DNA from: Thermosulfuriphilus ammonigenes
Lineage (GTDB): Bacteria > Desulfobacterota > Thermodesulfobacteria > Thermodesulfobacteriales > ST65
Direction of reading: 5' to 3'
Assembly: GCF_011207455.1 (NCBI RefSeq)
Contig: NZ_CP048877.1
Location: 1,976,576-2,040,575, forward strand
Length of the DNA: 64,000 bases
Below, one piece after another: positions 28,160 through 45,975 of this stretch. The stretch's first letter is position 1. Each line of letters opens with the position of its first letter. The notes beneath the pieces were generated by a model. That model was not told the origin of the DNA, searched no databases, and saw nothing but the letters and a program-made list of their open reading frames with translations. The translations under genes were made by a program, and so were the position numbers.

Positions 28160-29488
28160 TTAGTGATGGACTACCAGCGCAAAAGGGGTTCCTCCCAGTT
28201 CTATTCGGCCAACTATTTTTTCAGAAATGGTGTCGATAACTACCAAACCCTTGCCCTTGCGATCAGCCACATAGAGCCATTTGCGTTGATTATAGGTGGC
28301 CATGGTAAAGGGAGAACCATTTACACGAATTTTCTTAGAAATGGTAAGTTGCCCGGGGGAAATAATGCCTACAGTCCCCTCTTCCTCGTTACTTATATAT
28401 AATCGGCTATCTGATCCCGAAACTCTAATTGTTCCTCGACCGCTACGAACCCGACCTACTAACTCTCCGGTGTCAAGGTTAAATATGCTCAAGGTCCCAG
28501 GACGATATTCGGCTACATAAAGTCTTTTCTCCCTAATCCATAACCCTCTGGGATCCATAATCCCGGTGAGCTTTCCACCCGAGGAAAGATCTGTGTTGAG
28601 GATATAAACCACCTGATCTGTAGGGGAGGAGACAAAAATCTGGCCCTTATCCTCCCAATAGAGGACCTCCGACGGTTGATAGCCAAGTCGTTTAGAAGAA
28701 AGAAGGCCTCCAGAGGTAAGGTTTACCAGCAGAAGAAAGTGTGAATCCGGATCAGTAATTACGGCTGATCTAGATCCTACCAGGGCCAGATATTTGGGAC
28801 GGGTGGCTAAAGGAAGAAAAAAGGAGTCTATGGGTCGGAAAGAAGAAAGCTCGATTACATTGATGGCTCGGTCATCCTGGGCCAGTACATAGAGACGATT
28901 ACCTGCGGTGGAGATAGCCATGTCGGTAGGAGAGCCAGAGACGGCCAAAGAGGCTACCACCTGATTGGTGTCAGCCCGGATGGCAAAAAGGGTGTCTATA
29001 TCATCGCAGCTCACGTAAAGGGTTTCTTCACGAAGTGGTCTTCCTTGTAGTCGGCCGGTAAAACTAGGAAGAAAACGAGATCCCTGAATGGAGTCTCGCA
29101 CATACCAGAGAATAAAAAGGCTAAGGCTTGCTTTTCCTCTAAGCCTAAACGGAAGATTTATTATCACCGGTTCGGCTGGAGAGCTTAAATGCCCTTCCCC
29201 TAGGCAGACATCACTAATCTCTAGGGAGAGGCCTTTATAAGTCCCAGGGGGGATTTCTTGAGTGGTTAAGAGCGTCTGGCCGAAAGATACTCGAGAAGAG
29301 ACGTACTTTCCCTGAAGCAGAGGAAGCTTTCTTTCCCCTTCTTTGAGGAGATAGAGTTTTTTTAGTTTGAAGCTAATCTCTTCTGGTGGGGGGTTGATGA
29401 TGTTTAAAAAGATATTAACCCTTGCCCCCAGACAGCTTCCTTTAAGAAGAAGAAAAAAGATCAAGAAGGTAAAAAATCTCAGAAGCAT
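28160..29488 (-). CDS. secreted YVTN-type beta-propeller protein
   Basis: 442 residues with a signal peptide (FFTFLIFFLLLKGSCLGA). The N-terminal 150 residues are beta-rich and unassigned. From about 155 there are repeated propeller blades: LYVSCDDIDTLFAI, LYVLAQDDRAINVIE, IFVSSPTDQVVYIL, LYVAEYRPGTLSIFN, LYISNEEEGTVGII, LYVADRKGKGLVVID. Such propellers are scaffolds or binding proteins, and no catalytic signature is visible. The start overlaps the 8-haem gene's stop by 10 bases. One of three propeller proteins among the cytochromes. Confidence 0.87.
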   Translation of the reverse strand: MLLRFFTFLIFFLLLKGSCLGARVNIFLNIINPPPEEISFKLKKLYLLKEGERKLPLLQGKYVSSRVSFGQTLLTTQEIPPGTYKGLSLEISDVCLGEGHLSSPAEPVIINLPFRLRGKASLSLFILWYVRDSIQGSRFLPSFTGRLQGRPLREETLYVSCDDIDTLFAIRADTNQVVASLAVSGSPTDMAISTAGNRLYVLAQDDRAINVIELSSFRPIDSFFLPLATRPKYLALVGSRSAVITDPDSHFLLLVNLTSGGLLSSKRLGYQPSEVLYWEDKGQIFVSSPTDQVVYILNTDLSSGGKLTGIMDPRGLWIREKRLYVAEYRPGTLSIFNLDTGELVGRVRSGRGTIRVSGSDSRLYISNEEEGTVGIISPGQLTISKKIRVNGSPFTMATYNQRKWLYVADRKGKGLVVIDTISEKIVGRIELGGTPFALVVHH

Positions 29489-30783
29489 ATCCTTCCCGTG
29501 GCTCGGGCTCCGGCCCAGCTGTCATCTTTACCGTGCATATGGCAATTAAGGCAGTTAGATACGCCGCCAGCCTGGTGACAAAACATGCACTGCATTTGAA
29601 CATAAGGTCTATCAGAGGCCTTATGATGAATATACTCCCAGCGGTTAGCAGTTGAGGAGATCCCGGCAGCCTTGTCGTCCATATGGCAGGCCCGACACAG
29701 GTAGCCCATGTCCTTGCTGTTAGGATCCGTAATACTTACAGCAACTCCATTTACCTCCCGACGGATAAGAAAGGGATTGGGAGAGCCATGGGGCTCGTGA
29801 CAGTCCAGACAGGAAACTGCAAAACCTATGGATATCCCTATAGGGGCCGATGAATAAGGGGCATTCATACTGATGGCAACAGTAGCCGAGTTTCGGCCGT
29901 GCTTATCCCCCGGACCGCTTTCTCCACCTTCGCTTATCCAGTCTATAGGGCGAAGGTTGCGCCCCAAGGTGGTGCTATAAATGGTATTTGTGGAGTTGTG
30001 ACAATCGGTACAGAAGGTAGCATAATCAGGAAGATTAGAACCATCATAGGTGTTTGTCCCCCCTGGCTCATAACCTGAGGAATAATGAAGAGGGGCCTGA
30101 TATTTTCCGGTAAAGAAGTCGGCCATCTTCTCCCCGGCCCCATCTCCCCAAAGAGTTCCGTGATCAGTTGGGCGTGATACGGCGGTGGCAGCAGACGGGT
30201 TGGTTGGATTAGCCTTGATACGTTTGGCCAGGTGTGGGTTGTGGCAAGCTACACAAGGATTGGACTGATCCGTAAAGAAAGAAAATGTATTTCGTGCAAA
30301 ATTCCAGACATCGTAGAGATTATGGTAGGAAGTTTGATTGAAGGCCTCTAAAATAGTTGTTGGCCCCTGGGTGGTATAACCCCCAAAGGTTTGAGCGTAG
30401 TCATTATTGGTTATGCCTCCGCTTTGCAAAGATGGGGCTCCATGACATGCAAAACAAAAATTGTCATCCTGAAGGTAACTTCCTGTGGTGGCTCCGGTGT
30501 TGAAGAAGTTTCTAAAGAGGTCAAAAGGGAAAGGCCCGGAGTTGGTGGCCCCGTTTATTATTCCATGCTGTTCGTGACAGTGACCACAATTTCCTTGAGA
30601 GTAAGTGGTTGTTCTTTCTGTCCGTTTTACGCCTGTAGAGCTGTTACCGTGGGCAGAATTAAGATAATCTCCGGCAAAGGCTAAAGTGGTTACTAAAAGG
30701 ACCATCGCTCCAGCAACCAAAAAGACTCTAAGCCTAATGCTTAAGCCTTTAGTCTTTTGTTGTATGGCATGCATTACAGCCAT
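29479..30783 (-). CDS. 8-haem c-type cytochrome
   Basis: 434 residues. Signal peptide (VFLVAGAMVLLVTTLAFA), then eight CXXCH: CGHCHEQH, CFACH, CVACHNPH, CTDCH, CLDCHEPHG, CRACH, CMFCH, CLNCH. Several are followed by xPH/xEH, the usual bis-His ligand arrangement. The opening GDYLNSAHGN is typical of secreted cytochromes in anaerobic deltaproteobacteria-like genomes. The start overlaps the OmcS-like gene by 35 bases (or 26 if ATG 30774 is used). Periplasmic or extracellular electron carrier by inference. Confidence 0.92.
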   Translation of the reverse strand: MAVMHAIQQKTKGLSIRLRVFLVAGAMVLLVTTLAFAGDYLNSAHGNSSTGVKRTERTTTYSQGNCGHCHEQHGIINGATNSGPFPFDLFRNFFNTGATTGSYLQDDNFCFACHGAPSLQSGGITNNDYAQTFGGYTTQGPTTILEAFNQTSYHNLYDVWNFARNTFSFFTDQSNPCVACHNPHLAKRIKANPTNPSAATAVSRPTDHGTLWGDGAGEKMADFFTGKYQAPLHYSSGYEPGGTNTYDGSNLPDYATFCTDCHNSTNTIYSTTLGRNLRPIDWISEGGESGPGDKHGRNSATVAISMNAPYSSAPIGISIGFAVSCLDCHEPHGSPNPFLIRREVNGVAVSITDPNSKDMGYLCRACHMDDKAAGISSTANRWEYIHHKASDRPYVQMQCMFCHQAGGVSNCLNCHMHGKDDSWAGARATGRICF

Positions 30784-31798
30784 TTACCGTTGTTCCTCCA
30801 GGCCAGCCCTGGTAGTTCCAGCGCAGGATTTTCTTGTAAGGGGTACCATGGGCTCGATGACAAGAGATACAAGTTACAATGGTGTCGTTGTTAAAGGTTA
30901 CGGTTTGTTTGACACTAGAAACATCTTCGCTTGCCACCGGAGCAATAACCGAATAGGCCCCAGCGGCCGGACCATAGTTTCCTGGATAATTACGATACTC
31001 TGAACCAGCACTGGTGTTGCCAAGGTCATAGTCAGTAGGGTGTCTCAACCATGGAGACCCCCAACTACCACTGCTGATGTTTGCTCCGGCATGAAAATCG
31101 CCATGACACTGACCACACAGAGAACTTATGGTGGTAGAGTCAATGTCCGTTTCTGAGACTCTATCTCGCCCTTTGTACTGATTATGGGCACTACTTGTGG
31201 GCTGATACTCCCAGTCAGAATCTTCCAGCCCAACTATCCCTTTAAGAAAACGGTAGCTCTTCCCTACGGTAGAGCCATCGATAGTGGAGTCGTCAGCGTG
31301 ATGGGCTCCTAAAAGGGCCTCTACATCTCCGGCTACGGTTCGGTCTCCATGGCAGCCATACTGACCGGCGCAGGTGAGCTGTTGACCAAGATCTGTGCCT
31401 CCGGGAGGTGTAGTCCCTAAAGTGGCGTCCACTCCGGCTACGCCAGCAACATTATGGCCGCAGGCGTCGTCGACCCCCACCCAGTAAAAATTGCCACCAG
31501 CTAAGGTATTAGTGCCAGACTCTGTACCTGTATCGCTATAGGTGGGGGCACTGGTAGAAAGGACGTAAGGAACCTTATTTGTCCCCGTATTAATCCCGGT
31601 ATGACAACCAAGGCAGCTGTTGTTTAAAAGGGCTTTATAAGGCCCAGAGCTTCCCCATTGGGTTAAAGTGGTGCCCCCCTGTGAGTAGTGCATGGTATGA
31701 CAATTGGAACAGACCCCGGATACCCGTGCTACTCCAGGGCTATATCCTAAAAGAACAAGACCTAAGAGACTTACAAGAAAGCTCCAGATCTTACCCAA
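30749..31798 (-). CDS. OmcS/OmcE-like filament-type cytochrome (paralogue 1)
   Basis: 349 residues with a signal peptide (FLVSLLGLVLLGYSPGVARV). Haem motifs: CSNCHTMHYS at the mature N-terminus, CLGCH, a CX5CH variant (CAGQYGCHGD), CGQCHGDFH, CISCHRAHG and CNACHTTKD at the very C-terminus. The order, the GHN loop (CGHNVAG), SPWLRHP and CHRAH match the layout of Geobacter OmcS. A block around GAHHADDSTIDGSTVGKSY is shared almost exactly with paralogue 2. It lies between the NHL and 8-haem genes, 1 base after the NHL stop. Predicted extracellular filament subunit; that is inference from the family. Confidence 0.88.
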   Translation of the reverse strand: MGKIWSFLVSLLGLVLLGYSPGVARVSGVCSNCHTMHYSQGGTTLTQWGSSGPYKALLNNSCLGCHTGINTGTNKVPYVLSTSAPTYSDTGTESGTNTLAGGNFYWVGVDDACGHNVAGVAGVDATLGTTPPGGTDLGQQLTCAGQYGCHGDRTVAGDVEALLGAHHADDSTIDGSTVGKSYRFLKGIVGLEDSDWEYQPTSSAHNQYKGRDRVSETDIDSTTISSLCGQCHGDFHAGANISSGSWGSPWLRHPTDYDLGNTSAGSEYRNYPGNYGPAAGAYSVIAPVASEDVSSVKQTVTFNNDTIVTCISCHRAHGTPYKKILRWNYQGWPGGTTVNGCNACHTTKD

Positions 31799-31799
31799 G

Positions 31800-32699
31800 T
31801 TAGTGTCTCCAAATATCTATGCGGCCATTTCCCTCATCAAGCACTAAAAGCTCGCTATCGACAAAAAGTAACTGCCAAGGGTAATTGAGATGGCCGGGAG
31901 TAGCTCCTTCATCGAGAAAGGAGTATCGAAAACGTCCGTTTTTGTCAAAAACAAAAATCTTTTTTAGATAACGATCAAGGATGTAAATATTCATTTGCCT
32001 GTCGATTTCTAGAGCCACAGGAAGTGAAAGTTTGCGATCAGGAGTGACAAAGATTTCCTTTCCTGTTGTTAAATTAATGCCATAGATACGGGCGCTAATA
32101 TTTTCTAACCCCCACAGCCAGTCCCCTTTAATTTTAATATCGAAAAAGCCCCGGAAATCTTTATTTTTGGGCCTTATGGCCCTATTTACCTTGAGGGATC
32201 TGTCAAGCAGAAGAGCCTCTCCGGTAGCTCGATCAAGAACAATTAAGTGCTTCTTCCATACCAGGAGCCGATCAACTAAAACAGTGCGTCCCTGATAGGT
32301 GAGCTGATGCCTTTTTAGACGCTGAGCCTTCAGATCAATGTGGGTGAGGCTATTAAGGGGTCTTTCTACAACCCAAAGACTTCCTGTTTGGTCTCTTACC
32401 ATGGCTAAAGGACCTTTGAGCTGGCCAGCGGCATCAAATTCTTTAAGAGGAGTGCCCTGGCGATCAAAGGAGACGAGACGATTGTTTCCAGTATCACTGA
32501 CATACAAGCGTTGAGTAGTCTGATCATAGTACATGGCTAATGGGTAATGGAAGTGAACACCATTGGCATCCTTCTCCAGCGAGACCTTAAGTTTAAAGGA
32601 GATAGCCTGACTGATAGAAGGAAGACATATTTCCATTCCAAGAGAGATCCCCAGAAAAACAACCCAGTAGATTAATAATTTTTGTGACACTCGAGACAT
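31800..32699 (-). CDS. secreted NHL-repeat beta-propeller protein
   Basis: 299 residues with a signal peptide (LLIYWVVFLGISLGMEICLP). NHL-type blades: RLYVSDTGNNRLVSFDRQG, PLAMVRDQTGSLWVVE, MNIYILDRYLKKIFVFDKNG, LLVLDEGNGRIDIW. ATG 32699 has GGGAGG seven bases upstream and overlaps the 16-haem stop by 28 bases. NHL proteins recur beside extracellular cytochrome genes and may chaperone or bind them; there is no direct evidence here beyond position. Confidence 0.88.
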   Translation of the reverse strand: MSRVSQKLLIYWVVFLGISLGMEICLPSISQAISFKLKVSLEKDANGVHFHYPLAMYYDQTTQRLYVSDTGNNRLVSFDRQGTPLKEFDAAGQLKGPLAMVRDQTGSLWVVERPLNSLTHIDLKAQRLKRHQLTYQGRTVLVDRLLVWKKHLIVLDRATGEALLLDRSLKVNRAIRPKNKDFRGFFDIKIKGDWLWGLENISARIYGINLTTGKEIFVTPDRKLSLPVALEIDRQMNIYILDRYLKKIFVFDKNGRFRYSFLDEGATPGHLNYPWQLLFVDSELLVLDEGNGRIDIWRH

Positions 32700-33841
32700 A
32701 GAGTTGCCTCCCCGCTTAGTCTAAGGTTGTACTTAAAGTTGGTGCCCATTGGATCATGACAGGTAACGCAGGTTACCGGCTGACCATTGCGGGGGTCGAT
32801 GATCTTGTCCCCAACAGGATGAGTGAATTCTCCTTGCGTTTCATGACACCGGACACAGGCAGCATTACCGTCTCCATTGAGCATAGCTGGATGATTTGAA
32901 CCATGGCCCACATGACAGTTGAGGCAGTTACCCCATTGGGGGTGAATGTAAAGGCTGGCCTCTTTTTGACGGTAGGTTTCTGGATGACATTGTTGACATA
33001 ACCGCCCCGGGGCGTCTCTAAGGAGGGCCTCTGTATCGGCCACATGGGGGCTATGGCAGACCAGGCACGGATTCTCCTCAAGCCCTCCTAAAAGGTGGTT
33101 GTGGGTGTGCTCGAAGCTCTTCTTCTGGTCTTCATGGCAGGAAAGGCAAAGATCAGCTCCCTTCTTTTGAGCCTTATGGCAGGTCTGACAGCTCCCTTTT
33201 TCGTAAGGAGGATGTCCTTTTTCCCTTAAGAGCCCTTTTCTATCGCTCCCATGGGGATTGTGACAGGAGAGACAATCCATTTCTCCAGGAGCTTTTCCCT
33301 GATGGGTCTTTGAGAGCTTTGCGGTTTCTTTGTGGCAGGTGAGACAGAGATCTGGTCCAGTCTTTTTAATAAGGCGCCTGTCGTTTGATACATGAGCCTC
33401 ATGACATGAGAGGCACTTCCCCTGAGCAAAAGGGAAATGGGGGTTCTTGAACTTCTGGCGAAGATCCTTGTGGCAATTCAGGCAAATTGTTTTGGCCTCT
33501 TCCTTAAGAAGGTTAGGCTGAGGGGAGGTATGAGCTTCATGGCAGCGAAGACAGGCCCCTTTGGCCACTGGGGGATGAATCACCTCGGCTTGGGTTAAGG
33601 CCTTCTTTAAAGGCTTGTGACAGGTGAAGCAAAGCCCTGGGGCAGGTTCCTTAAGGAGTCCTTTGTAGCGCGAAACATGGGGCAGATGACATCGATCACA
33701 TTCTCCTTTGGTTATCGGTTTATGAATTCGGCCCTGAATAAAGGCCTTTCGAGGATGGCATTTGAAACAGACCTTCTGGGTCTGGGCCCAAGAAAATGGC
33801 CCCCAGAGAATAATCAGAAGCAAAATCCACCAACGTATCAT
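32672..33841 (-). CDS. 16-haem c-type cytochrome
   Basis: 389 residues. Signal peptide (WWILLLIILWGPFSWAQ), then sixteen CXXCH spread evenly over the chain, alternating between a CLxCHEAH/NPHGS type and an LCLxCHK type. This forms roughly 40-residue two-haem units resembling the 26-haem neighbour. Haems 15 and 16 (CVTCHDP, CLECHKN) close the protein. ATG 33841 overlaps the 26-haem stop (ATGA) with GGAGG six bases upstream. No lipobox, so probably periplasmic or secreted. With the 26-haem protein it likely forms an electron wire. Confidence 0.93.
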   Translation of the reverse strand: MIRWWILLLIILWGPFSWAQTQKVCFKCHPRKAFIQGRIHKPITKGECDRCHLPHVSRYKGLLKEPAPGLCFTCHKPLKKALTQAEVIHPPVAKGACLRCHEAHTSPQPNLLKEEAKTICLNCHKDLRQKFKNPHFPFAQGKCLSCHEAHVSNDRRLIKKTGPDLCLTCHKETAKLSKTHQGKAPGEMDCLSCHNPHGSDRKGLLREKGHPPYEKGSCQTCHKAQKKGADLCLSCHEDQKKSFEHTHNHLLGGLEENPCLVCHSPHVADTEALLRDAPGRLCQQCHPETYRQKEASLYIHPQWGNCLNCHVGHGSNHPAMLNGDGNAACVRCHETQGEFTHPVGDKIIDPRNGQPVTCVTCHDPMGTNFKYNLRLSGEATLCLECHKNY

Positions 33842-35778
33842 CGGCCACCTCCGTGACAGGGGAGACAATTCCCTTTTTCAAAGGGAGGATGCTCTACTGG
33901 CCAGAGCATTCGCTCGTCAGGGGCCCCATGGGGATTATGGCAGGTAGTGCATGACTTGGGGGAGGGAGTAATGTCGTTGTGCGCAGAAACAAGGGCCTGA
34001 TCTATCTTATGACAACTAAGACATATTTTGCCTGCCGGGGCCTTAAGTAAGGCTTTACGTGAACCAGCGTGGCTTTGGTGACAGGTGAGGCAACCCTCTT
34101 CCTCTTCTGCCGGAGGATGAGCCACCCCCTGTCGCCAATAGTTAGAGACATCCTGATGGCAAGAAAGACAGAGGTCTTTTAAGTCCTCCCTGAGGTACCA
34201 GGGCTTTTCACCTCCATGGGGACGATGACATTGCTGACAGTTCCCTTTTTCTGCCGGTGGGTGGACAACCGCTTCCCGTCTGACCATTTGTCCTACCTGA
34301 CTGTGGCAGTCAAAACATATGGTGTCCAGAGGGCGTTTGATCTGGAAGGCGTATTCAGCGGCATGAGCATCGTGGCAGGTAAGGCACTGCTTTCGAGCAA
34401 AGGGAGCATGGACTTTCTCTCCTTTGAATTCCTTTTCTAGCCTTTGGTGGCAGGAGAAACACATCTGGTTTGGAGACTCAGGAAGGAGATATTTTGTCTG
34501 GGCGTAATGGGGATCATGACAGTCAGAGCAACGTCCACTAGCAAAAGGGGTATGGAGGCTGAATTTGTTTTCTTCCTTGGCGGTTTTTTGATGACAGGAA
34601 AAGCAAAGCTTTTTTTCCTCTTTTCCTAAAAGATGGGGCTGGGAGGAGTCATGGGGGAGGTGGCAGGTTAAACATTGCCCTTTAGCAGTAGGCCGATGGG
34701 CTATCGGTCCTTTCTTGATCCCCTCATGGCAGGACAGACACAGTTTGCCGGGCTCTTCAGCTATCAAAGACTTTTGCTGTGAGATGTGACCCCGATGGCA
34801 GGCAAGACAATCGCCGTCTTTGACTGGCTTGTGCTCACTTCGGATCTGGCGTCCAGGCTTTTGGACCTTTTGAGTGCTATGGCACTGGGTGCAAAGGGCT
34901 CCCGGAGCTTTAGAGAGAAGTGGGGACCAGGCGCTGCCATGGGGACCATGACAGGTAAGGCACTTTCCCCGGTCATAGGGGAGGTGGTGGCTGGCGCCAG
35001 TCTCTTTGGGATGGCAACTTAGGCATCCCTCTTGAGGGTCTCCCTTAAGCCCTAAGGGATGTTCTCCCCGACCGATATGACAAGAATTACACTCTCCCTT
35101 GGTAACAGGCTGATGTATCGAAGGACGCAGGAGAGATTTTTGCCCAGAGCTATGGGGATCATGGCATTGAATACAAGCTTGGCTAATATCAAAGTTAAAG
35201 TGAGCCTTTTTAAGGATTGTCTTATCCGTATGACAGGAGAGACAGAGAGAAGAGGATTTTTCTTGGAGAAGATCTGGCTGATCTGAGCCGTGAGGTTGGT
35301 GACAACGAAGACAACCTTCCTCTAAGGCCTGGTGCTTATTAACCCCTTTTAAGACATCTTGGTGACATTCGAGACACTGACTATCAACGGGTTTTTTAAG
35401 GAGTCCTTTCTGGGGAGCTGAATGAGGCAGATGACAGAGAAAACAGCCCCCTTTTTGGGCTGGCGGGTGGACTGTCTGGCGGCGGAGCTCTTCTAAAGTC
35501 TTCTGGTGACAGCGAAGACAAAGTTGAGGTGGATCACTCTTTAAAAAGGCCCCTCCCACCAGACCGTGGGGGCGATGACAACCATTACACTGTCCACTAG
35601 CTACCGGTTGATGGATTACCGGTCCTTCTTTAGTAACCAGGGTCTTGTAGTCTGGATGACACTCAAGACAGGTTTTTTTGGCTCTGGGAGCCTGGGGTTG
35701 AGGACTTTGAACGCAGCCAAAGATTAGAGGGAAGAAAAATACTAGCCCTGCCAGCCACTTAATGGACGTGGGCTTCAT
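33838..35778 (-). CDS. 26-haem c-type cytochrome lipoprotein
   Basis: 646 residues, 26 CXXCH by direct count. Signal peptide with lipobox (FFFPLIFGC, Cys22), so a lipidated outer-membrane protein. The body is about thirteen units of the form HxP..KGxC..CHxPHGS ... LCLSCH, each carrying two haems 18-25 residues apart; the xPH histidines are the expected distal ligands. ATG 35778 has GGAGG six bases upstream and overlaps the prolyl-isomerase stop by 20 bases. Large cytochromes of this size occur in the omcS neighbourhood of Geobacter (from memory). It probably links periplasm and cell surface. Confidence 0.93.
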   Translation of the reverse strand: MKPTSIKWLAGLVFFFPLIFGCVQSPQPQAPRAKKTCLECHPDYKTLVTKEGPVIHQPVASGQCNGCHRPHGLVGGAFLKSDPPQLCLRCHQKTLEELRRQTVHPPAQKGGCFLCHLPHSAPQKGLLKKPVDSQCLECHQDVLKGVNKHQALEEGCLRCHQPHGSDQPDLLQEKSSSLCLSCHTDKTILKKAHFNFDISQACIQCHDPHSSGQKSLLRPSIHQPVTKGECNSCHIGRGEHPLGLKGDPQEGCLSCHPKETGASHHLPYDRGKCLTCHGPHGSAWSPLLSKAPGALCTQCHSTQKVQKPGRQIRSEHKPVKDGDCLACHRGHISQQKSLIAEEPGKLCLSCHEGIKKGPIAHRPTAKGQCLTCHLPHDSSQPHLLGKEEKKLCFSCHQKTAKEENKFSLHTPFASGRCSDCHDPHYAQTKYLLPESPNQMCFSCHQRLEKEFKGEKVHAPFARKQCLTCHDAHAAEYAFQIKRPLDTICFDCHSQVGQMVRREAVVHPPAEKGNCQQCHRPHGGEKPWYLREDLKDLCLSCHQDVSNYWRQGVAHPPAEEEEGCLTCHQSHAGSRKALLKAPAGKICLSCHKIDQALVSAHNDITPSPKSCTTCHNPHGAPDERMLWPVEHPPFEKGNCLPCHGGGR

Positions 35779-37396
35779 CGGTAGCCTCCAGTTCTTTTTT
35801 GAGCCTTCGCCAGGTCTTCTGATGGATTTTAATCTGTGATTTTTCCCGAAGCTTGGCCAGATATTCCCTTTTGAGCTCCTCAAAACGCCTCTGGGCCAAG
35901 GTCTTCATGATGTTTTTCTTGACCATCTCAAAAGGATGAACCTCTTCGGGATTTTTCTTAAGGAGTTTAACTATGGCATACCACTCTTCACCAAAGGGAC
36001 TCTTGAACTTAATAATCGGAGAGATCCGTCCTTCTTCCATTTTCTCTAAAACTTCCCTCATCTCTGGAACAAGGCTTTCCAGAGGCCTTCTTTCTGGTCT
36101 GGCACCATGAAAATCAACCTCTTTGGCCACTTCAAAGAAGTCTTCTCCCCTTTGGATGCGTTGATAGACCTTCCGGGCCAGTTGTTCGTCTTGGGTCTTG
36201 ATTACGGCCATCTCTACCTGGGCTGGGCGAGTAAAGTCCTTCTTATGTTCTTCATAATAGCGTCGGGCATCTTCTTCGGTCACTTTAACGTTGGGCCAGA
36301 TAATCTTTTCTTCCAACTCTCTGACTAAACGTTGCCGGCGATAGAAGTCATATACCTCCTTGAGAGGGGGCCGTTTTTCATAGTGGCGGTTAATGGCCTC
36401 CCAGGTAGTAAGGGTCTGGGCGATAGAGTCGTTGATTATCCGCTGTTTAATTTGGTTTAGCTCCTGGGAAGAAGGGGTCTTGCCGGCCCTGAGCTTGGCC
36501 TCCTTTTTAAGGAGTTTATGTAAATCCGCCCCGGTGAGGCTTTTGTCGGCTATTTTAAGGACTGTTGCCCCGGCGAGATCTTTAGGTGGCTCCTCAAGGC
36601 CAATTTGGTTTAAGACCTCTTGGTTTATTTCTACAGGATATTTTTCCCGGAGGCGTTTAATAAGTTCAGCCGTGAGCCTTTGTGATTCTCTCTTTTTGAC
36701 TCTTGTGGCTACGTTGTTGCGAACTTTCTTGAAGTCTTCCTCCTCCGGTCCTCTTTTCTCTTCAACATAGAGAATGTAGAAGCGATTGTTTAACTTCAGG
36801 GGGCCAAGGATCTCTCCCGGTGAGGCCGAAAGGACCTTATCTTTTATAACTTCAGGGATGGTTATCGGACGCTCCCAGCCAAAATCTCGAGCCTTTCCTT
36901 CGGGGGATAGTTTCTCAAAAAGGGTTTCAAAGTCCTTAGGGGTCTTAATTTTTTCTTTCCAGGCCTGGACCTCATTTTCGTCATTGGTAATTAAAGCCTT
37001 TATCTTCAGCCGAGGGGTATAATTTTTTACATACTCGGGCCATAAGGTTTTGCGACTCAAATCAATACGACTGTCAACTTCGTCATATTTTAGCTGCATC
37101 AGGGAGCGAACCTGGATGAAGATATCAAGCTTTCGTCGATAGGATGGTTCCTGGTCAAGCCCTAAAGCCAGGGCCTCATCGGCCATAAGATTCCAGTCTA
37201 TGAAAGGATCGGGGGTTTCAGGGACTTTCATCCCCGGATCCTTCCAATACTTCCACCATCGTTTGAAATCGTCAGTCGTGTACTTTTGACCATTTATCTC
37301 TACTAGATAATCCCGCCCCCAGAAGCCCCAAGCTGTTCCGGAGATGAATAGAAAGAAAAGAATTAATGACTTAATGAATATCTGGTACCGTTTCAC
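35759..37396 (-). CDS. secreted parvulin-type peptidyl-prolyl isomerase
   Basis: 545 residues. Signal peptide (FIKSLILFFLFISGTAWGFW), a helical SurA/PpiD-like N-domain, a parvulin-like domain at about 135-225 (LITNDENEVQ, DFGWERPITIPEVI, LGPLKLNNRFYILYVEEK) and a second, more diverged one at about 395-495 (VEMAVIKTQDEQLARKVYQ, ISPIIKFKSPFGEEWYAIV), then a basic C-terminal tail. Likely folds periplasmic or outer-membrane clients, here the cytochromes or the barrel. GTG start directly after the TAA of the upstream lipoprotein gene; GGAGG lies ten bases upstream. Isomerase activity is not assured in either domain. Confidence 0.87.
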   Translation of the reverse strand: MKRYQIFIKSLILFFLFISGTAWGFWGRDYLVEINGQKYTTDDFKRWWKYWKDPGMKVPETPDPFIDWNLMADEALALGLDQEPSYRRKLDIFIQVRSLMQLKYDEVDSRIDLSRKTLWPEYVKNYTPRLKIKALITNDENEVQAWKEKIKTPKDFETLFEKLSPEGKARDFGWERPITIPEVIKDKVLSASPGEILGPLKLNNRFYILYVEEKRGPEEEDFKKVRNNVATRVKKRESQRLTAELIKRLREKYPVEINQEVLNQIGLEEPPKDLAGATVLKIADKSLTGADLHKLLKKEAKLRAGKTPSSQELNQIKQRIINDSIAQTLTTWEAINRHYEKRPPLKEVYDFYRRQRLVRELEEKIIWPNVKVTEEDARRYYEEHKKDFTRPAQVEMAVIKTQDEQLARKVYQRIQRGEDFFEVAKEVDFHGARPERRPLESLVPEMREVLEKMEEGRISPIIKFKSPFGEEWYAIVKLLKKNPEEVHPFEMVKKNIMKTLAQRRFEELKREYLAKLREKSQIKIHQKTWRRLKKELEATDEAHVH

Positions 37397-37981
37397 TTAT
37401 TTACAACCTCCCAGACCCCTTTTTTTCCAATTGTCAACGATCTCTGAGACCATCTTTTGGGCCAGACCAGTTAAAGTCCAGATGCGCCCAAAATGTAAAG
37501 CCTTACGGTATTCTTCACCCTCTCGAGAGTGATAAGTACTCCATAGAAGCCGTCCTGTTTTAGCGTCTCTTACCCAGATGTTAAAGGCCAAAGACACATC
37601 ATTTCCTTCTTCTTTGGCCTTAAGAATCTCACCACTTATTACGGCCTGGGCTCCCGTCTTCTCTCCCAGAAGGCGCACCACTCGGGCCGGTGGCTCCTGC
37701 CCGAGCGGACATCTTTCCATAACTAGAAAATGTCTAACAGCCCCTTCTTCGACGACATCGAAGGATCGAGTTTCTACCATTTGGGCAATAAGAACTCGAT
37801 AGACCAAACGGGCTACGGTGGGGTGTTTGGTCTGATTAATGAAGGGAAGAATGGCCACTCGGCAAGGTCTAGCTGAGACTCCCCGGGCCACATCGACCCG
37901 GGGGAGATCCGATCCACAACCCCAAAGTCCAATGAGTAGCAGAAAGAGGCCCAGAAATCTCCAAGTAACATTAGAAATCAT
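37397..37981 (-). CDS. CsgG/GNA1162-like lipoprotein A
   Basis: 194 residues with a lipobox signal peptide (LGLFLLLIGLWGC). The mature part has the domain seen also in the two genes upstream: VAILPFINQTKH at the first strand, FDVVEEGAVRHFL, KTGAQAVISGEIL, WVRDAKTGRLLWST and a C-terminal amphipathic helix. This resembles the CsgG / GNA1162 / LpoB fold of outer-membrane lipoproteins. ATG 37981 is chosen so that the lipobox falls at normal distance. It overlaps the 494-residue gene's stop by 11 bases and ends directly at the isomerase start. Confidence 0.78.
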   Translation of the reverse strand: MISNVTWRFLGLFLLLIGLWGCGSDLPRVDVARGVSARPCRVAILPFINQTKHPTVARLVYRVLIAQMVETRSFDVVEEGAVRHFLVMERCPLGQEPPARVVRLLGEKTGAQAVISGEILKAKEEGNDVSLAFNIWVRDAKTGRLLWSTYHSREGEEYRKALHFGRIWTLTGLAQKMVSEIVDNWKKRGLGGCK

Positions 37982-39455
37982 CCACCCACTTTTTCTCCAC
38001 TTTCTTCTTTTCTTCCGCAGCACGCATGATGATGGGCTTTAGTTCCTCATTTCGGACTCTTCGCCGATTTCCAAGAATATCCCGGACCTCTAAGCTATAA
38101 AGGAGGCCTTCTTGTTTGGGAATAACTAAGCTCTTAGGAGGCCTTTGTCCCTCATACTCCCCAACTAGATTTCCTTCTTTATCCCAAAGTTCAAGGCGCC
38201 ACTCGGATACCGGCACCGGATGGGCTCCGATGTTCAGTTTAATAACCATCTTCTCTGAAAAGGCTCGGGCTTGAAGGTTTACTGGTGGAGCACCTTTGAC
38301 GACAATGAGATCACGTTCGGCAATATAGGTGTTTCCAGCCTGATCCCAAACTTTAAGGGAGACTCGATAACGGCCATCGGGTATTCGGTGGCCACTTTGA
38401 TCAGCCCCCCGCCAAGTAAAGGAGGGGGGAAGGCGTCCTGGCCGTTCTTCCTTTACTACCAGCTGGCCTGTTTCTACCGAAGAGATTTGGAGTAGCCAAC
38501 GAGAGATAGGTTCTGGACGCTCCAGTACCGGAACAAGAACAATATGGCGTTTAAAGGCCACACCTTGGGGTAGAGCTTCTCCTTTAAGGGTCCTTATCTC
38601 CAGCTTTGGAGGAGTATTGTCCACCATAAAAGAGGAAAGGAAGAGTCTTTTTTCCATATGCCATGGTCTTCCCCAGCGCAAAAGGAGATTTACCGGATAA
38701 CGTCCTTCCTTACGGGGAGCTGTCCACCAGGCAATGTAAAGATCTCCTTTCTTAATGGTGGGAACCCGACGTCCACTAGGAAGGAGGAAATAAACCTCCT
38801 CTGGAGGATCTCCAGAGATGTCCAGACGTACAGCGCACTCTATACGTTTACCCCCTCTTACGTGACGAGGACGGACAAAGACATCAGCGATTTCAAAAAT
38901 AGGCGGTTGGGCTAGGCTTCGCTCCAGATCTTGGGGAAGACTGGCTAAAATTTTCTTTATTCCTTCAGAGAGGAGACTCTGGAAGTCATGTTTCCCAAGG
39001 CCCAGAAGACTGACTTCTGCCAGCCCTGATAGAGATACGGTCTTGCTCCATATGAGTTGATAGTCTCTGGCCCTCAGAATCCTTAAGGAGAGACCTAAAG
39101 CCGGTTCATCTGGATCAAGTTCGGTTACTGTGCCTAGAAGGATGAGATCTACCCCCAGCTCTCTTGAGGCCCGAGCCGCTGTTAGTCTTTCGGCCCATCC
39201 TGTCCAGCGGATACGGTTTTTGGCCATAAAATTGAGGACCTTGTCTGGATGTACTACTTGAAAACCGCGGTCCTCTAGGGCCTGAGCCACAGCCTCGGAG
39301 AGATCCAGGTTGACCCCGTTGATATCTTTGGAGAGGTCCTCAAAAGGAAAAACAGCAATCTGTCCCCTCGTCGGAAAGGCGGAAATAAGGAGTAAGAAAA
39401 TGCCTAATCCAAGAACTTTGCCAAAGATTGTCAAAAATTTTTTTAATCTAAACAT
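37971..39455 (-). CDS. secreted CsgG-like protein with Ig-like C-terminal domains
   Basis: 494 residues. A signal peptide (GLGIFLLLISAFPTRGQ) is followed by a CsgG/TolB-N-like domain (IAVFPFEDLSKDI, GFQVVHPDKVLNFM, LGVDLILLGTV, RDYQLIWSKTV; to about 180). The rest is beta-rich modules including FlgD-Ig-like sequence (RIPDGRYRVSLKVWDQAGN) and a basic C-terminal tail (EEKKKVEKKWVDDF). It has no lipobox cysteine, unlike its two neighbours. Possibly a periplasmic or secreted partner of the lipoproteins. No enzyme motif. Confidence 0.72.
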   Translation of the reverse strand: MFRLKKFLTIFGKVLGLGIFLLLISAFPTRGQIAVFPFEDLSKDINGVNLDLSEAVAQALEDRGFQVVHPDKVLNFMAKNRIRWTGWAERLTAARASRELGVDLILLGTVTELDPDEPALGLSLRILRARDYQLIWSKTVSLSGLAEVSLLGLGKHDFQSLLSEGIKKILASLPQDLERSLAQPPIFEIADVFVRPRHVRGGKRIECAVRLDISGDPPEEVYFLLPSGRRVPTIKKGDLYIAWWTAPRKEGRYPVNLLLRWGRPWHMEKRLFLSSFMVDNTPPKLEIRTLKGEALPQGVAFKRHIVLVPVLERPEPISRWLLQISSVETGQLVVKEERPGRLPPSFTWRGADQSGHRIPDGRYRVSLKVWDQAGNTYIAERDLIVVKGAPPVNLQARAFSEKMVIKLNIGAHPVPVSEWRLELWDKEGNLVGEYEGQRPPKSLVIPKQEGLLYSLEVRDILGNRRRVRNEELKPIIMRAAEEKKKVEKKWVDDF

Positions 39456-39477
39456 CTAGCCCCCTTCCGGCAGGCCA

Positions 39478-40053
39478 TCACTTTAAAGTCTTCAGCAACC
39501 TTTCTACTAGATCAAAGCTTACTTGAGTAAAATCTTTAGGACGTAAACCAAAAAGCCTACCACTAGTACTATAACCACTCGCTGTGCCGCTGGCCTGCCA
39601 GATAACCTCCCCCGAAGCCCCATCTATTAACCGCAGGGTAAGGGCTACTACCGGGTAGGTATAGCTTCCATCTCTATTTTCTTCATAAGCATCCACGGCG
39701 CCAACCACTAGGGCCTGGACTCCTAGTTTTTTGGCTATCCGACGCAGGGTACTTTTGTCCAGGGAGACCTTCTCCCCGACCATCTGTTCTTCCAGAACTA
39801 CATCTACCATGGCCTTATCTACTACGTCAAAGAGTCCGAGGGAGAGGATCTCTGTCATGGTAATGTTACGGAGCCGTTCGGCGGCGTAGTTGTCTTGGGA
39901 ATTGTTTTCAAATTTGAGTACCGCCACCTTTTTAATATAAGTTGTATCAACCCCCTCTCGCAGATAAGATTCCATCATTTGATGGGTCCCGCAGGACGCA
40001 ATTAGAATAAGCAGGTTAATTAATAAAACGGCAATTTTGCTAGAGCCCTTCAT
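39478..40053 (-). CDS. CsgG/GNA1162-like lipoprotein B
   Basis: 191 residues with a lipobox signal peptide (LLINLLILIASCG). The domain reads VAVLKFENNSQDNYAAERL, LGLFDVVDKAMVDVVLEEQ, LGVQALVVGAVDAY, DGASGEVIWQASGTASG and a C-terminal helix (VSFDLVERLLKTL). Of the three it is the closest to CsgG-type curli-secretion lipoproteins, but shorter than CsgG and without an obvious transmembrane hairpin pair. ATG 40053 follows GGAGG by seven bases. It is the second gene of the minus-strand operon, 20 bases after the barrel. Confidence 0.8.
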   Translation of the reverse strand: MKGSSKIAVLLINLLILIASCGTHQMMESYLREGVDTTYIKKVAVLKFENNSQDNYAAERLRNITMTEILSLGLFDVVDKAMVDVVLEEQMVGEKVSLDKSTLRRIAKKLGVQALVVGAVDAYEENRDGSYTYPVVALTLRLIDGASGEVIWQASGTASGYSTSGRLFGLRPKDFTQVSFDLVERLLKTLK

Positions 40054-40073
40054 AAACATTCCTCCCCAATCTT

Positions 40074-42014
40074 CTAAAAAGAGGCCGTGAGGTTGACCAT
40101 CCAGGTCCACTGAGTTTGACCATCACTTTTACTCCAAGAATAGTTGGTCTTAAGGGAGAGATAGCGGCTAATAGTCCAGGAGAGAAAGGTCGAATATTGA
40201 TCACTTTTGCTACCATTGCGGGATCCAGAATACTGAAGATTAAACTGAACCTTCGGGCTTACGGCCCACCAGAGTGAATAGTTGGAGGAGAAAGTCTTAT
40301 CCTCCGTGTCCGACCAGGAGACCGCTTCGGCAGCTCTGATAAGCAGCACATCCGAGGCCCGCCAGCTGACATCAAGAGAGAGATTATGGCTGGTGGCTTG
40401 GCTGCTGGTCGCTCCAGTGGTTTCACTCCTGGTATAGTTGTAAAGGCTATTGATAGTAAGCGATGGACGAATTCTGGCGATAATATTGAGCCTTGAAGTC
40501 AGCCCAGTAGTATCAGTGTCTGATTCGTAACTATGAGATAGGGTATAAGTAACGTCCCACCGAAGATCAAGGTCAGGGTATAGCTTGGCGGAGGTAGAAA
40601 GGGTTAAGCTGTCAGAGCTACTCTGTTTTGCCCCTCCTACTTCGGAGATGGAGTGGGTTAGTCCGGTTGAGAGAGAAAGGGTTTCCAGAATATCAGAGAT
40701 AATGGTGGCTGAAGCGTTGGTAATCTTTGTCTCCGGCTGTCCCTCTACCTTGTTGCTACTCTGGGAAAGGTTGGCCTGAGTCTGAAGATACTTATTTATA
40801 AACCAGGATCCTGCCAGGGTATGAACCGTGTTTTCCGCCTGATTGCCTGGTTCAGGGATATTTTTATCATAAGCTAGATAATAAGATAGAGATATATCCT
40901 CATTTAAAGCATAAGTCAGGGAAAGATCAGTGCGATAGGTTTTAGATTTTTGGGTGTAGCTACTAGAATAGATAAATAAATAGGCCCTAACCTCGGGATC
41001 ATTAAGGATAGGAGCGGGAGAGGGGACATCCTTAACTACTAATTTAATATATCGCCCCCGGGAGAAAGTAGAGGAGAAGCGATAGGGAAGGGAGATATTT
41101 GAGGCTATAAGATTCCAGGTGGATTTATCCGAACTCCAGTAGATGTCCCACCGGACAGTGGTGGGGACAGGCTCAAGTATGGTCCCGTCAGTATAGAAAT
41201 AGATGCTGTCTAGGGACTGGGTGCCAAGGTCGATAATGATCTCTTGATTTTTGGTTAGGGAATCACCGTTGGCTGGTTTACTTGGCTCCCAACTAATACT
41301 AATCGTAAGTTCAAATTCGGAGTAACCACCTCCACTTATTTTCCCCTTCCAGTCGGTCTTAGTAAAGCTAAATTGCTGGCCAAAATTGTAAGATAGCTTA
41401 CGCCATCGGCCAGTGTATTGGCCCTTGAGAAAGTGAGATTCGGTGTCTGTGGTGGATTCCTTAACGCGGTCATCACTGGTAGAACCTCTATAGTCATAAA
41501 ATAGGTTAATACCTCGCCAGAGGCGATTGGCGCTAAAACCCCAATGGTCAGATGTGCTGTCTATCCTTCTGGGCTGGCTGTCATCCTGCTGGGTGGAACT
41601 TCCATAATAAAAGCGCAAAGAAGTTTCTTTATAAGTGGTGGAAAGGTTAGCATCCCAGGAGCGGGAGGAAAAATTGGGGCTGTCCGAGTTACGTCTTTCA
41701 GTATCGGTAGCACTGAGGTTAAAGTTAAAAAGATCGTTGCGGATTCCTAAGTAGGCGGTAGGAGTAAAAAGCTCTCTTCTCTGGGATCCCCGTTCGGTCC
41801 GATTGTAGCGAATGGTAGCCCCGGTGTTAATGGCCCGGGTAGCCTGTGAAGATAGGCTTAAGGAGTAAGTCTGTTGGAGCTGGCTTTCCTGATCTGAATA
41901 CTCCCAATAGCGCCAGTCAGTAGAAAAGTTGTAGGCCTTCACCCCTCCCCCTGTCTGGAGCCCAAAGAATAAAAAAAAAGCAATTATCAGCCTCCCCCAT
42001 GCTGATCCATTCAT
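40074..42014 (-). CDS. outer-membrane beta-barrel with discoidin-like insert
   Basis: 646 residues. Signal peptide (LIIAFFLFFGLQTGGGVKA), then amphipathic beta-strands rich in Ser/Thr/Tyr/Trp throughout, ending in Phe (LTASF), as in outer-membrane barrels. About residues 245-350 break the pattern and read as an F5/8-type C (discoidin) or galactose-binding-like domain (EIIIDLGTQSLDSIYFYTDG, TVRWDIYWSSDKSTWNLIAS, RGRYIKLVVKD). Counting alternating strands suggests roughly 20 or more. First gene of the operon: the likely porin sheath of an electron conduit, by position and fold, not by close homology. Confidence 0.8.
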   Translation of the reverse strand: MNGSAWGRLIIAFFLFFGLQTGGGVKAYNFSTDWRYWEYSDQESQLQQTYSLSLSSQATRAINTGATIRYNRTERGSQRRELFTPTAYLGIRNDLFNFNLSATDTERRNSDSPNFSSRSWDANLSTTYKETSLRFYYGSSTQQDDSQPRRIDSTSDHWGFSANRLWRGINLFYDYRGSTSDDRVKESTTDTESHFLKGQYTGRWRKLSYNFGQQFSFTKTDWKGKISGGGYSEFELTISISWEPSKPANGDSLTKNQEIIIDLGTQSLDSIYFYTDGTILEPVPTTVRWDIYWSSDKSTWNLIASNISLPYRFSSTFSRGRYIKLVVKDVPSPAPILNDPEVRAYLFIYSSSYTQKSKTYRTDLSLTYALNEDISLSYYLAYDKNIPEPGNQAENTVHTLAGSWFINKYLQTQANLSQSSNKVEGQPETKITNASATIISDILETLSLSTGLTHSISEVGGAKQSSSDSLTLSTSAKLYPDLDLRWDVTYTLSHSYESDTDTTGLTSRLNIIARIRPSLTINSLYNYTRSETTGATSSQATSHNLSLDVSWRASDVLLIRAAEAVSWSDTEDKTFSSNYSLWWAVSPKVQFNLQYSGSRNGSKSDQYSTFLSWTISRYLSLKTNYSWSKSDGQTQWTWMVNLTASF

Positions 42015-42579
42015 TGGCCCTGTTAAATATATTTATTTGTGCCTATTTTCAACTTGTTTTCTGATCCTTTCTTTAAGGATCTTCAGGGATTCCTAAAACT
42101 ATTTTAGGTTTTTACCGAAAAGTGAAAATTTTAAAAATGAGTTGACAGTCATCCGATAATTAGTCTAGAGAGTAAACAATTCTTGAGGGCTATCTAAATT
42201 TTTAACCGGAGGACTGGCCAAGAGGGAGAAAAGGTTTTATATATTAAAAAGAGCGCTAAAAAGATAAGTTATACAAAAGATGCCAGGTTTTTTAAAAAGG
42301 TCTAAGATAAGACAGATTTAGTTAAAAGTTGGCTTGAAGAGGTCAAGTGGAAGAAAGAGTTTTGGTTAGATCTAGAAAATTAGCAAGATAGTAAATAAAT
42401 AGATTGGTTTTTCTTAATTCTTAGAAGAAGGAGGTGAGAGAGGTTAGTGTAGCTGTTTAAATCCTTAAAAAGGAGAATTGATTTTTACTAAAAGAATAGG
42501 TAGCCTAATGAAGTTAAATTCATTTACCAGTTTTTTTAAAAATTTTAAAAAGGAGAAAACTTTAAAGAAAGGGGGAGCT
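42015..42579. promoter_or_regulatory. AT-rich divergent control region of the two cytochrome operons
   Basis: 565 bases between the barrel gene (minus) and the first plus-strand cytochrome. Markedly AT-rich compared with its flanks. Must drive both operons. A perfect TTGACA sits at 42142-42147, but no good -10 follows at 16-18 bases. GAAGGAGGTGAG at about 42427 and AAAAAGGAG at 42466 and 42549 look like ribosome binding sites, but no convincing leader ORF starts after them. A long 5' leader for the plus-strand operon is possible. Confidence 0.45.
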
Positions 42580-43707
42580 ATGAGAAAGGGTTTTATCTTT
42601 TCAGTAATTTTGGCCTTGGTCTTGGTTTTGCCGGGGCTCTCTCAGGCCCGAGTACAGGGCCCGTGTGCTGACTGTCACACCATGCATAACTCTCAGAACG
42701 GTGCGGCGGTGGTCTCTGGAGGGCCTTATCGGGCCTTGACAAAGGGGGATTGTGTTGGTTGCCATACGGGCGGTCCAAACACTGGGACCAATAACATTCC
42801 CTATGTAAATTTCACCTCGGCACCTACCTATGGCAATTTTGGTATCGAGAGCGGTACTAACACCTTGGCTGGTGGTAACTTCTACTGGGTGGCCCAGGGC
42901 AGTGACGCCAAGGGGCATAATGTCTCTGGTATCGCCTCTCAAGATGGAGCCATCGGTCTTACTCCTCCTGGTTGGAATAATACTGATTTTCAGAAAAATG
43001 GGGCTGTGGCCAATGGTGAGGCTACATGGAGCCAGCAGCTCACCTGTGCTGGAACCTATGGTTGTCATGGTGACCACCAGTATACTGACGACTTTAAGGC
43101 TATCTCCGGGGCTCATCATACTGACGATTCCACTATTGATGGTTCTACTGTAGGTAAGAGCTTTCGCTTCCTCAAAGGTATTAAGGGCATTGAAGACTCT
43201 GATTGGGAGTATCAGCCCACCTCCACCGCCCACAATCAGTACTATGCCGTGGACCGAATTGGTAATTTTGTAGATGATCCTTCCGCTGCTGATCCGGCCA
43301 GCATCAACTATCTTTGTGCCGAATGTCATGGAAACTTCCACAGTGGTACGGGAAATACCGCCGGTGCTGATGATGAGGGCAGCACGGTTGGGTCACCCTG
43401 GATTCGTCATCCCTCTGATTTTGACATGAACAATGTCTCCAGTAAGGAGTATGGCCAGTATCCTGGGCCGTTCGATACTGCTGGGACCTACTGGCCCGGG
43501 GCTCCGGTTGGCTCCACGGATCTCTCTGGTGTCAAGAGCACGGTGCTTCAGGCCGCCGATGATGCCATTGTCCTCTGTATTTCCTGTCACCGAGCCCACG
43601 GTACCCCCAATGATGACCTGCTGCGTTGGGATTACACCCAGTGTAACGCTTCAAGCGGCTCTTCTGGAAATTGTGGTTGCTACGCCTGTCATACCACCAA
43701 ATACTAA
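42580..43707 (+). CDS. OmcS/OmcE-like filament-type cytochrome (paralogue 2)
   Basis: 375 residues. Signal peptide (GFIFSVILALVLVLPGLSQA), then CADCHTMHNS, CVGCH, the CX5CH variant CAGTYGCHGD, CAECHGNFH, CISCHRAHG and a C-terminal CYACHTTKY. Bis-His candidates KGHNV, GAHHTDDS and SPWIRHP are in the same order as OmcS. Very close to paralogue 1 over IDGSTVGKSFRFLKGI and DSDWEYQPTS. ATG 42580 follows GGGGGAG; an upstream in-frame extension is basic and lacks a good ribosome binding site. First gene of the plus-strand operon and followed by a hairpin, suggesting high expression. Predicted secreted nanowire subunit. Confidence 0.9.
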   Translation: MRKGFIFSVILALVLVLPGLSQARVQGPCADCHTMHNSQNGAAVVSGGPYRALTKGDCVGCHTGGPNTGTNNIPYVNFTSAPTYGNFGIESGTNTLAGGNFYWVAQGSDAKGHNVSGIASQDGAIGLTPPGWNNTDFQKNGAVANGEATWSQQLTCAGTYGCHGDHQYTDDFKAISGAHHTDDSTIDGSTVGKSFRFLKGIKGIEDSDWEYQPTSTAHNQYYAVDRIGNFVDDPSAADPASINYLCAECHGNFHSGTGNTAGADDEGSTVGSPWIRHPSDFDMNNVSSKEYGQYPGPFDTAGTYWPGAPVGSTDLSGVKSTVLQAADDAIVLCISCHRAHGTPNDDLLRWDYTQCNASSGSSGNCGCYACHTTKY

Positions 43708-43722
43708 TTATTAGCTGAACTA

Positions 43723-43757
43723 AAGTTTGGGAGGGGAGAACACCCCCTCCCAAACTT
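43723..43757 (+). terminator. strong intercistronic hairpin between two filament cytochromes
   Basis: Perfect 14-bp stem: AAGTTTGGGAGGGG (43723-43736), 7-base loop, CCCCTCCCAAACTT (43744-43757). Only a weak, interrupted T run follows. It could be a partial terminator or a 3' stabiliser of the first cytochrome message. The next gene's ribosome binding site begins about 14 bases later. Confidence 0.65.
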
Positions 43758-43782
43758 ATTGTTATTGGGCAGGAGGGGGAGG

Positions 43783-44910
43783 ATGGAGACAAAACTTAAG
43801 ATTTCGATAGGGGCAGTTGTCTTTTTGTGGGTGTGGGTGTCTTTGGTGGGGGTAGGGCAGGCCCGGGTCTCTGGGGTCTGCTCAAACTGTCATACCATGC
43901 ATAATTCTCAAAATGGCCAGGCCATTAAAACTTCTGGGCCTAATCCCTACCTTTTAGATCCAGTGTCAAGTTTTAGTGATCCTTGCGTTGGTTGTCATTC
44001 AAACACTACAGCAGAGACCATTGTTACTGTGGGAAGCACCCGAATCCCCATTGTGGTCAATCTTCAGGAGCCAACCTATCCTAGCGATGGTAGCTCAACT
44101 GGGGTTCTTGCCGGAGGTAACTTTTACTGGCTGATCACCAATGGTGATGTCTATGGTCACAACGTTCTGGCCATAGACGGCGTGAGTCAAGACGCCAATT
44201 TATCGCAGGCTCCGGGTATGCCTGACTCAGCCTCTGGGGGTAGCTGTGCGGGGTGTCATAGACAGGTGAGCAGATGTGAGAGCTGCCACAAGCCGGCTCA
44301 CCACGCTGACGATTCAGGGCCGGTTGTTGGAGAGTCTGGTGGCTGGTATCGCTTTCTTAATTCGTCGGAGCACGGCAGCTCGGCCACAGGGGTGATTGGC
44401 ATTGAGGATTCTGACTGGGAGCAGACGGTAAGTGCCACGGATCACAATGAATACAACGGCACCAACAATATCTATGGCAACGATGACAATTCCATGAGCA
44501 ACTACTGTGCGGGTTGCCACTTCAAGTTCCATGGAGTCAATTATGTAGATACGGATGGTAATGTTTTAGCTGATAACCATTCGCCCTGGTTCAGGCACCC
44601 CAACCATATTGCTCTGCCCAATGATCCCAACAAAGAGTATTATTACTACAACAATCCTGGTGGCACTGGCCCGGGCGACTACAATCCCATTGCACCTGTG
44701 GCCAGGGATCCGAACACCCTTTCCGGGATGACGGGGCCGACCAACATTGTCACCCCGGGTAGTGATCAGGTGATGTGTCTTTCCTGTCATAGACCTCACG
44801 GCAGCCCCTATCCGGATATGCTGCGCTGGGATTACCTTAATGCCTGTATAGCCGGCACCAGCAATGCGAACTGTGGCTGTTTTGTCTGCCATACCACCAA
44901 AGGACAGTAA
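43783..44910 (+). CDS. OmcS/OmcE-like filament-type cytochrome (paralogue 3, 7 haems)
   Basis: 375 residues. Signal peptide (ISIGAVVFLWVWVSLVGVGQA), then CSNCHTMHNS, CVGCH, CAGCH, CESCH, CAGCHFKFH, CLSCHRPHG and C-terminal CFVCHTTKG: seven canonical motifs. Where the other paralogues have one CX5CH, this one has two CXXCH 11 residues apart (cysteine to cysteine). YGHNV, PAHHADDS and SPWFRHP are conserved. The two tyrosine-rich stretches near 285-290 (EYYYYNN) are unique to it. ATG 43783 follows AGGAGGGGGAGG. Likely a filament subunit or an accessory tip/base subunit; inference. Confidence 0.9.
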   Translation: METKLKISIGAVVFLWVWVSLVGVGQARVSGVCSNCHTMHNSQNGQAIKTSGPNPYLLDPVSSFSDPCVGCHSNTTAETIVTVGSTRIPIVVNLQEPTYPSDGSSTGVLAGGNFYWLITNGDVYGHNVLAIDGVSQDANLSQAPGMPDSASGGSCAGCHRQVSRCESCHKPAHHADDSGPVVGESGGWYRFLNSSEHGSSATGVIGIEDSDWEQTVSATDHNEYNGTNNIYGNDDNSMSNYCAGCHFKFHGVNYVDTDGNVLADNHSPWFRHPNHIALPNDPNKEYYYYNNPGGTGPGDYNPIAPVARDPNTLSGMTGPTNIVTPGSDQVMCLSCHRPHGSPYPDMLRWDYLNACIAGTSNANCGCFVCHTTKGQ

Positions 44911-44918
44911 CGAAGATT

Positions 44919-44967
44919 TGAGGCCCAGGAGGGAGTTATTGTTGGCCCTCCTGGGCCTCATTTTTTT
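44919..44967 (+). terminator. terminator-like hairpin that spans an RBS and start codon
   Basis: Perfect 15-bp stem TGAGGCCCAGGAGGG (44919-44933), 12-base loop, CCCTCCTGGGCCTCA (44946-44960), followed by seven T (44961-44967). This is a textbook intrinsic terminator for the cytochrome ending at 44910. The left arm contains AGGAGG, the only good ribosome binding site for the NHL gene, and the loop contains that gene's TTG start. It probably attenuates the downstream genes and may hide their ribosome binding site. Confidence 0.8.
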
Positions 44968-45961: not shown

Positions 45962-45975
45962 TAGGAGGAGCAATG

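Follow-up and report, generated by a model that had tools for sequence, protein, structure and literature searches.

Does the locus of Thermosulfuriphilus ammonigenes that carries three related multihaem cytochrome genes encode relatives of the filament proteins OmcS and OmcE, and would its products assemble into extracellular wires? The genome is complete on one contig of 2,287,345 bp, and we take strain ST65 to be a thermophilic sulfur/nitrate bacterium; the source organism is probably a thermophile. We analyzed a window of 64,000 nucleotides, by which we mean the whole stretch of DNA examined. A preliminary description had reported three open reading frames, here termed A, B and C, all of which were found in place, each with the motif series CxxCHTMHxS, GHNV, AHHxDDS, CxxCHxxFH, SPWxRHP, CxSCHRxHG and a carboxy-terminal CHTTK haem.

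Gene arrangement of the locus

The divergent arrangement was likewise recovered, B and C pointing away from a minus-strand run that contains A. Read from 42014 down to 28160, this run encodes barrel, lipoprotein, Ig-containing, TolB_N-like, isomerase, 26-haem, 16-haem, NHL propeller, A, eight-haem and propeller proteins. In the following list, E-values refer to profile matches in genome G190, which is discussed below.

27077–28144, minus: five-haem cytochrome, often within the same gene run at related loci
28160–29488, minus: beta-propeller protein (Pfam YncE/lactonase propeller), OscD-like by G190 gene order; match adjoining omcS, E 1e-53
29479–30783, minus: eight-haem secreted cytochrome, weakly OmcE-like, sharing 35 bp with the end of A
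30749–31798, minus: OmcS-like cytochrome A, 349 aa, TTG start; member of profile A1
31800–32699, minus: six-bladed propeller (Pfam NHL), conserved in order
32672–33868, minus: 16-haem cytochrome (16 CXXCH), OetA/OscJ-like
33838–35883, minus: 26-haem cytochrome (26 CXXCH), OetB/OscI-like
35759–37396, minus: PpiC-type prolyl isomerase (Pfam Rotamase), OscH-like; match adjoining omcS, E 4e-56
37397–38023, minus: TolB_N/PelC-superfamily protein (weak Pfam TolB_N), OscG-like part; E 1e-37
37971–39455, minus: FlgD-Ig-like domain protein (Pfam just below cut-off), OscG-like part; E 2e-31
39478–40110, minus: CsgG/PelC-superfamily lipoprotein, OscF-like; E 1.5e-47
40074–42014, minus: predicted outer-membrane beta-barrel, OetI/OscE-like, without a Pfam match; match adjoining omcS, E 2e-53
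42015–42579: divergent intergenic region of 565 bp, overlapped by no listed gene, with presumed promoters for both gene runs
42580–43707, plus: OmcS-like cytochrome B, 375 aa, ATG start; first sequence in profile A1
43783–44910, plus: OmcS-like cytochrome C, 375 aa, ATG start; profile A2
44864–45961, plus: propeller (Pfam NHL), conserved adjoining OmcS-like genes
45958–46791, plus: 12-haem cytochrome
46808–47851, plus: 12-haem cytochrome

Relationship of A, B and C to OmcS

OmcS was missed when A, B and C were each searched singly against the PDB with phmmer, and a profile was needed. We built profile A1 from 38 homologues drawn from this genome and its relatives and searched it against 177,635 PDB sequences, yielding OmcS (6ef8) with an E-value of 1.7e-25 and 93.5 bits as the only significant match; profile A2, comprising the C type alone, reached OmcS with an E-value of 2.4e-25. 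The OmcS sequence used was checked full-length against 6ef8. Alignment of the OmcS-like family to OmcS with hhalign gave a probability of 99.6; overall identity to OmcS is 23–27%. Because haem motifs inflate profile scores, we shuffled OmcS 500 times with every CXXCH kept in place; the best shuffle scored 36.1 bits and the median was −2.1, whereas real OmcS scored 93.5. The kinship proposed to OmcE was not supported: the PDB profile search matched OmcE (7TFS) only over 24 positions (profile positions 9–32) with an E-value of 0.96, and OmcE membership was rejected for all three proteins.

The AlphaFold2 model of A, built with 150 homologues, had a pLDDT of 88.4 and a pTM of 0.87. Foldseek comparison of this model with all PDB chains returned OmcS 6ef8 as its sole match (E 2e-5, probability 1.00, TM 0.47 by query length), a moderate structural overlap. 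Judged on the model of A only, the predicted fold is that of OmcS; the model of B, for which 38 sequences were used, was of low quality (pLDDT 57), and Foldseek gave no useful match for it. Foldseek searches with OmcS and OmcE have been reported to match only the proteins themselves and close homologues (PMC9473688), and a TM of 0.56 has been reported for a related protein (PMC12545173).

The profile search, hhalign, the confident model, the conserved haem-ligand histidines and the osc-type neighbours described below together corroborate the proposed kinship to OmcS. A contrary reading, in which recurring haem motifs alone make three unrelated multihaem cytochromes resemble OmcS, would agree with the single-sequence searches having missed OmcS, but it is ruled out by the shuffle control, the profile scores, the fold match and the osc neighbourhood, leaving it a negligible probability.

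Haem sites and ligand histidines

A and B each contain five CXXCH motifs and one CX5CH (CAGQYGCH, CAGTYGCH) at haem site 3, and C contains seven CXXCH. None of them therefore has the six CXXCH of OmcS, six colinear sites being obtained if CX5CH is counted. CX5CH is not a usual haem motif, and it occupies site 3 in 113 of the 150 homologues, A and B included. The C type has CX2, CX3 or CX4CH at this site, followed by an extra CXXCH, and Geobacter-like sequences have CX2CH. A text search of the literature for CX5CH with heme found no paper, though PMC12545173 writes CX2-5CH. The CX5CH site provides a clear biochemical test case for non-canonical haem attachment.

The inter-subunit ligand of OmcS is presumably His16, the second histidine of CHTMH. 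This residue is among nine OmcS histidines (H13, 16, 51, 110, 243, 257, 332, 335 and 404) whose positions hold His in every one of the 150 homologues; for H247 this is so in 142 of them. The family furthermore conserves the AHH and HN histidines, which are absent from OmcS. Ligation across subunits is established for OmcS, where a neighbouring subunit supplies one axial ligand of haem 5 (PMC6584659).

Polymerisation of A, B and C is likely. The label "nanowire" remains a presumptive one for these proteins, and among the Geobacter paralogues only OmcS is known to form a wire, not OmcT, GSU2501 or OmcJ (PMC12977616). Alternatively, all three might have the OmcS-like fold yet stay unpolymerised at the surface or in the periplasm, the role of the cluster being confined to their maturation and secretion. 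A secretion function older than wires has been raised as an option for GSU2501 (PMC12977616), and the moderate overlap of the model with OmcS would agree with it, but the invariance of the CHTMH histidine would then need another reason, and we consider this reading unlikely.

Neighbouring genes resemble the osc and oet clusters

The gene order of the window recurs at dozens of loci, chiefly of Thermodesulfobacteriota and in part of Nitrospirota. Genome G190 carries an omcS gene that is 52–56% identical to Geobacter omcS, and beside it the profiles found, in unchanged order, genes for a propeller, a barrel, a lipoprotein, an OscG-like protein and an isomerase. In the window, the same five kinds of gene, together with the 26- and 16-haem genes, adjoin the OmcS-like gene. 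On this sequence evidence, we regard the genes between 31800 and 42014 as homologous to the published osc ("omcS companion") or oet cluster, the Osc letters given to single window genes being putative assignments of our own.

PMC13194489 assigns folding to OscH, secretion to OscE, OscF and OscG, and morphology to OscD in the Geobacter osc operon; the need for osc products in filament folding, export and shape is credited to Shen et al. 2025 in PMC13194489 and PMC12977616, which also give GSU2495/oscI as a 26-haem protein, comparable to that of the window. Operons with 16- and 26-haem cytochromes were described in 2017 and 2023, with class Thermodesulfobacteria among the carriers, and this kind of cluster is therefore already known; the 16-haem, OetA-type gene set found here is the one reported in PMC5539420. 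The locus type is thus described and widespread, and what is new is another carrier. The preliminary description had recorded a real locus, ordinary in kind, and had mainly read it correctly; the osc machinery, two further paralogues, the CX5CH site and the weakly OmcE-like neighbour are additions of the present analysis.

Three consecutive genes at 37397–40110, probably of the TolB_N, PelC and CsgG superfamilies, are conserved with OmcS-like genes. The product of 39478–40110 scores above the Pfam CsgG cut-off, yet its best PDB profile matches are the small lipoproteins PelC and GNA1162 and not CsgG; a genuine CsgG secretion pore is one candidate reading of this gene. The three products could possibly form an outer-membrane export ring.

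Paralogues and distribution of the family

The count of three paralogues holds for the locus, and the genome as a whole has five family members, the two further OmcS-like copies lying at ~80.7 kb and 1725.5 kb on the chromosome. These two solitary paralogues (L033:8721-9746 and L034:8526-9626) are found away from osc genes, one of them with eight CXXCH. In a quick tree, in which some supports are below 95, A, B and C each belong to a separate group that also holds genes from other genomes, and C clusters with the two other copies of the genome and a seven-haem protein of genome G229. Recent tandem duplication is rejected by this tree, and A, B and C are three old lineages rather than recent duplicates.

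Mixed filaments or several filament types had both been suggested. Copolymerisation of A, B and C into one mixed filament draws its support solely from gene adjacency, three genes with a motif order in common lying at one locus, but the lineages are old, their haem numbers differ, and PMC12307469 describes the OmcS wire of known structure as homopolymeric. We judge a mixed filament highly improbable; three old lineages are no less compatible with distinct filament types or distinct roles than with a mixed polymer.

The OmcS-like family is present in 64 of 395 sampled genomes of the phylum, and 44 of these 64 have at least three matching stretches (counted from the table), several copies therefore being usual. 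One relative retains only a carboxy-terminal piece of an OmcS-like gene (G016:C1:489919-490074) together with a split eight-haem gene (G016:C1:1160224-1161484), remnants suggestive of a decaying system. A metagenome-assembled genome titled Heimdallarchaeota (L058, JAMOVR010000148.1) carries a locus with osc gene order and 74% identity to A, probably on a contaminating bacterial contig.

The eight-haem neighbour and a natural fusion

The eight-haem cytochrome downstream of A matches OmcE weakly by profile, with a whole-sequence E-value of 2.1e-5 and 0.0011 for the best stretch, which is partly signal peptide. A cytochrome of this type is fused to an OmcS-like domain in a natural protein of 729 aa (L018:469-2655; G019:C25). 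The OmcS-like domain of this fusion, known from one incomplete genome, begins at haem 2 and lacks haem 1 and CHTMH. The fusion is a lead rather than a result, coming from a single genome, and it offers a testable guess on how a cytochrome filament starts or is anchored, a point that a recent review regards as unresolved (PMC12307469). In a more elaborate and distinctly doubtful scenario, a single osc machine would serve three OmcS-type wires of differing chemistry, haem being bound at CX5CH in two of them and the third having one haem more; the eight-haem partner of A would act as filament adaptor, and the fused form, lacking haem 1 and CHTMH, could take up a further subunit at one end without extending from the other.

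Proposed function

We consider it fairly probable that the locus is an osc/oet-type cluster for extracellular electron transfer whose OmcS-family cytochromes A, B and C are secreted and then form polymers. Against this count the wire known only for OmcS among its Geobacter paralogues, the TM of 0.47 and the unusual CX5CH motif. The OscH-like prolyl isomerase would fold the secreted A, B and C, and the barrel with the PelC/CsgG-superfamily lipoproteins (OscE-, OscF- and OscG-like) would export them. Once outside, the subunits would assemble end to end, with the CHTMH motif offering its second histidine as ligand to a haem of the adjacent subunit, so that the haems stack in one unbroken chain. 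Together with the barrel, the 16- and 26-haem cytochromes would take electrons across the outer membrane; the propellers might shape or support the filaments, whose targets might be solid iron or sulfur, or partner cells. The data show homology to OmcS, conserved histidines, a conserved gene order and three distinct lineages, from which we infer secretion, polymerisation and acceptor use, as well as the role of each paralogue and each osc-like gene; the physiological role of cytochrome filaments is itself disputed by some laboratories (PMC11077965). The locus documents OmcS-type cytochromes and their presumed assembly genes in the complete genome of a probable thermophile, whose cytochromes could furnish heat-stable proteins for structural work.

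Comparison with known systems

Profile and fold comparisons both single out OmcS of Geobacter sulfurreducens (PDB 6EF8, 6NEF) as the sole significant match in the PDB, and it shares with A, B and C the colinear motif series, the nine invariant histidines and the carboxy-terminal haem. OmcS lacks the AHH and HN histidines of the family, and it differs from A and B at haem site 3, where they have CX5CH, and from C, which has seven CXXCH. OmcE, whose filament also shows inter-subunit histidine ligation (PMC9473688), is matched weakly by the eight-haem neighbour and not significantly by A, B and C.

DA_402, DA_756 and DA_765 of Desulfurivibrio alkaliphilus are OmcS-like proteins with CX2-5CH motifs that are upregulated on iron oxide, and their oligomer was predicted as a filament; the most induced cytochrome of that study rose more than 100-fold (PMC12545173). 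In genome G229, the distance between an A-type and a B-type gene is nine genes, as it would be for DA_756 and DA_765, and a C-type seven-haem gene is located roughly at the place expected for DA_402; these genes would be the respective counterparts. In contrast to the organism studied here, D. alkaliphilus belongs to another lineage and is known to grow on iron oxide.

The Geobacter osc cluster shares, via G190, the homologous order of propeller, barrel, lipoprotein, OscG-like and isomerase genes, and it shares the 26- and 16-haem cytochromes. In the window, unlike in Geobacter, B and C diverge from the block, which is followed by A and the eight-haem gene, and the OscG-like part consists of two genes. 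The oet cluster of syntrophic sulfate reducers (OetA, OetB, OetI, OmcX, OmcS-like, Apc2a) likewise resembles the locus in its 16- and 26-haem cytochromes, isomerase, propeller and OmcS-like genes.
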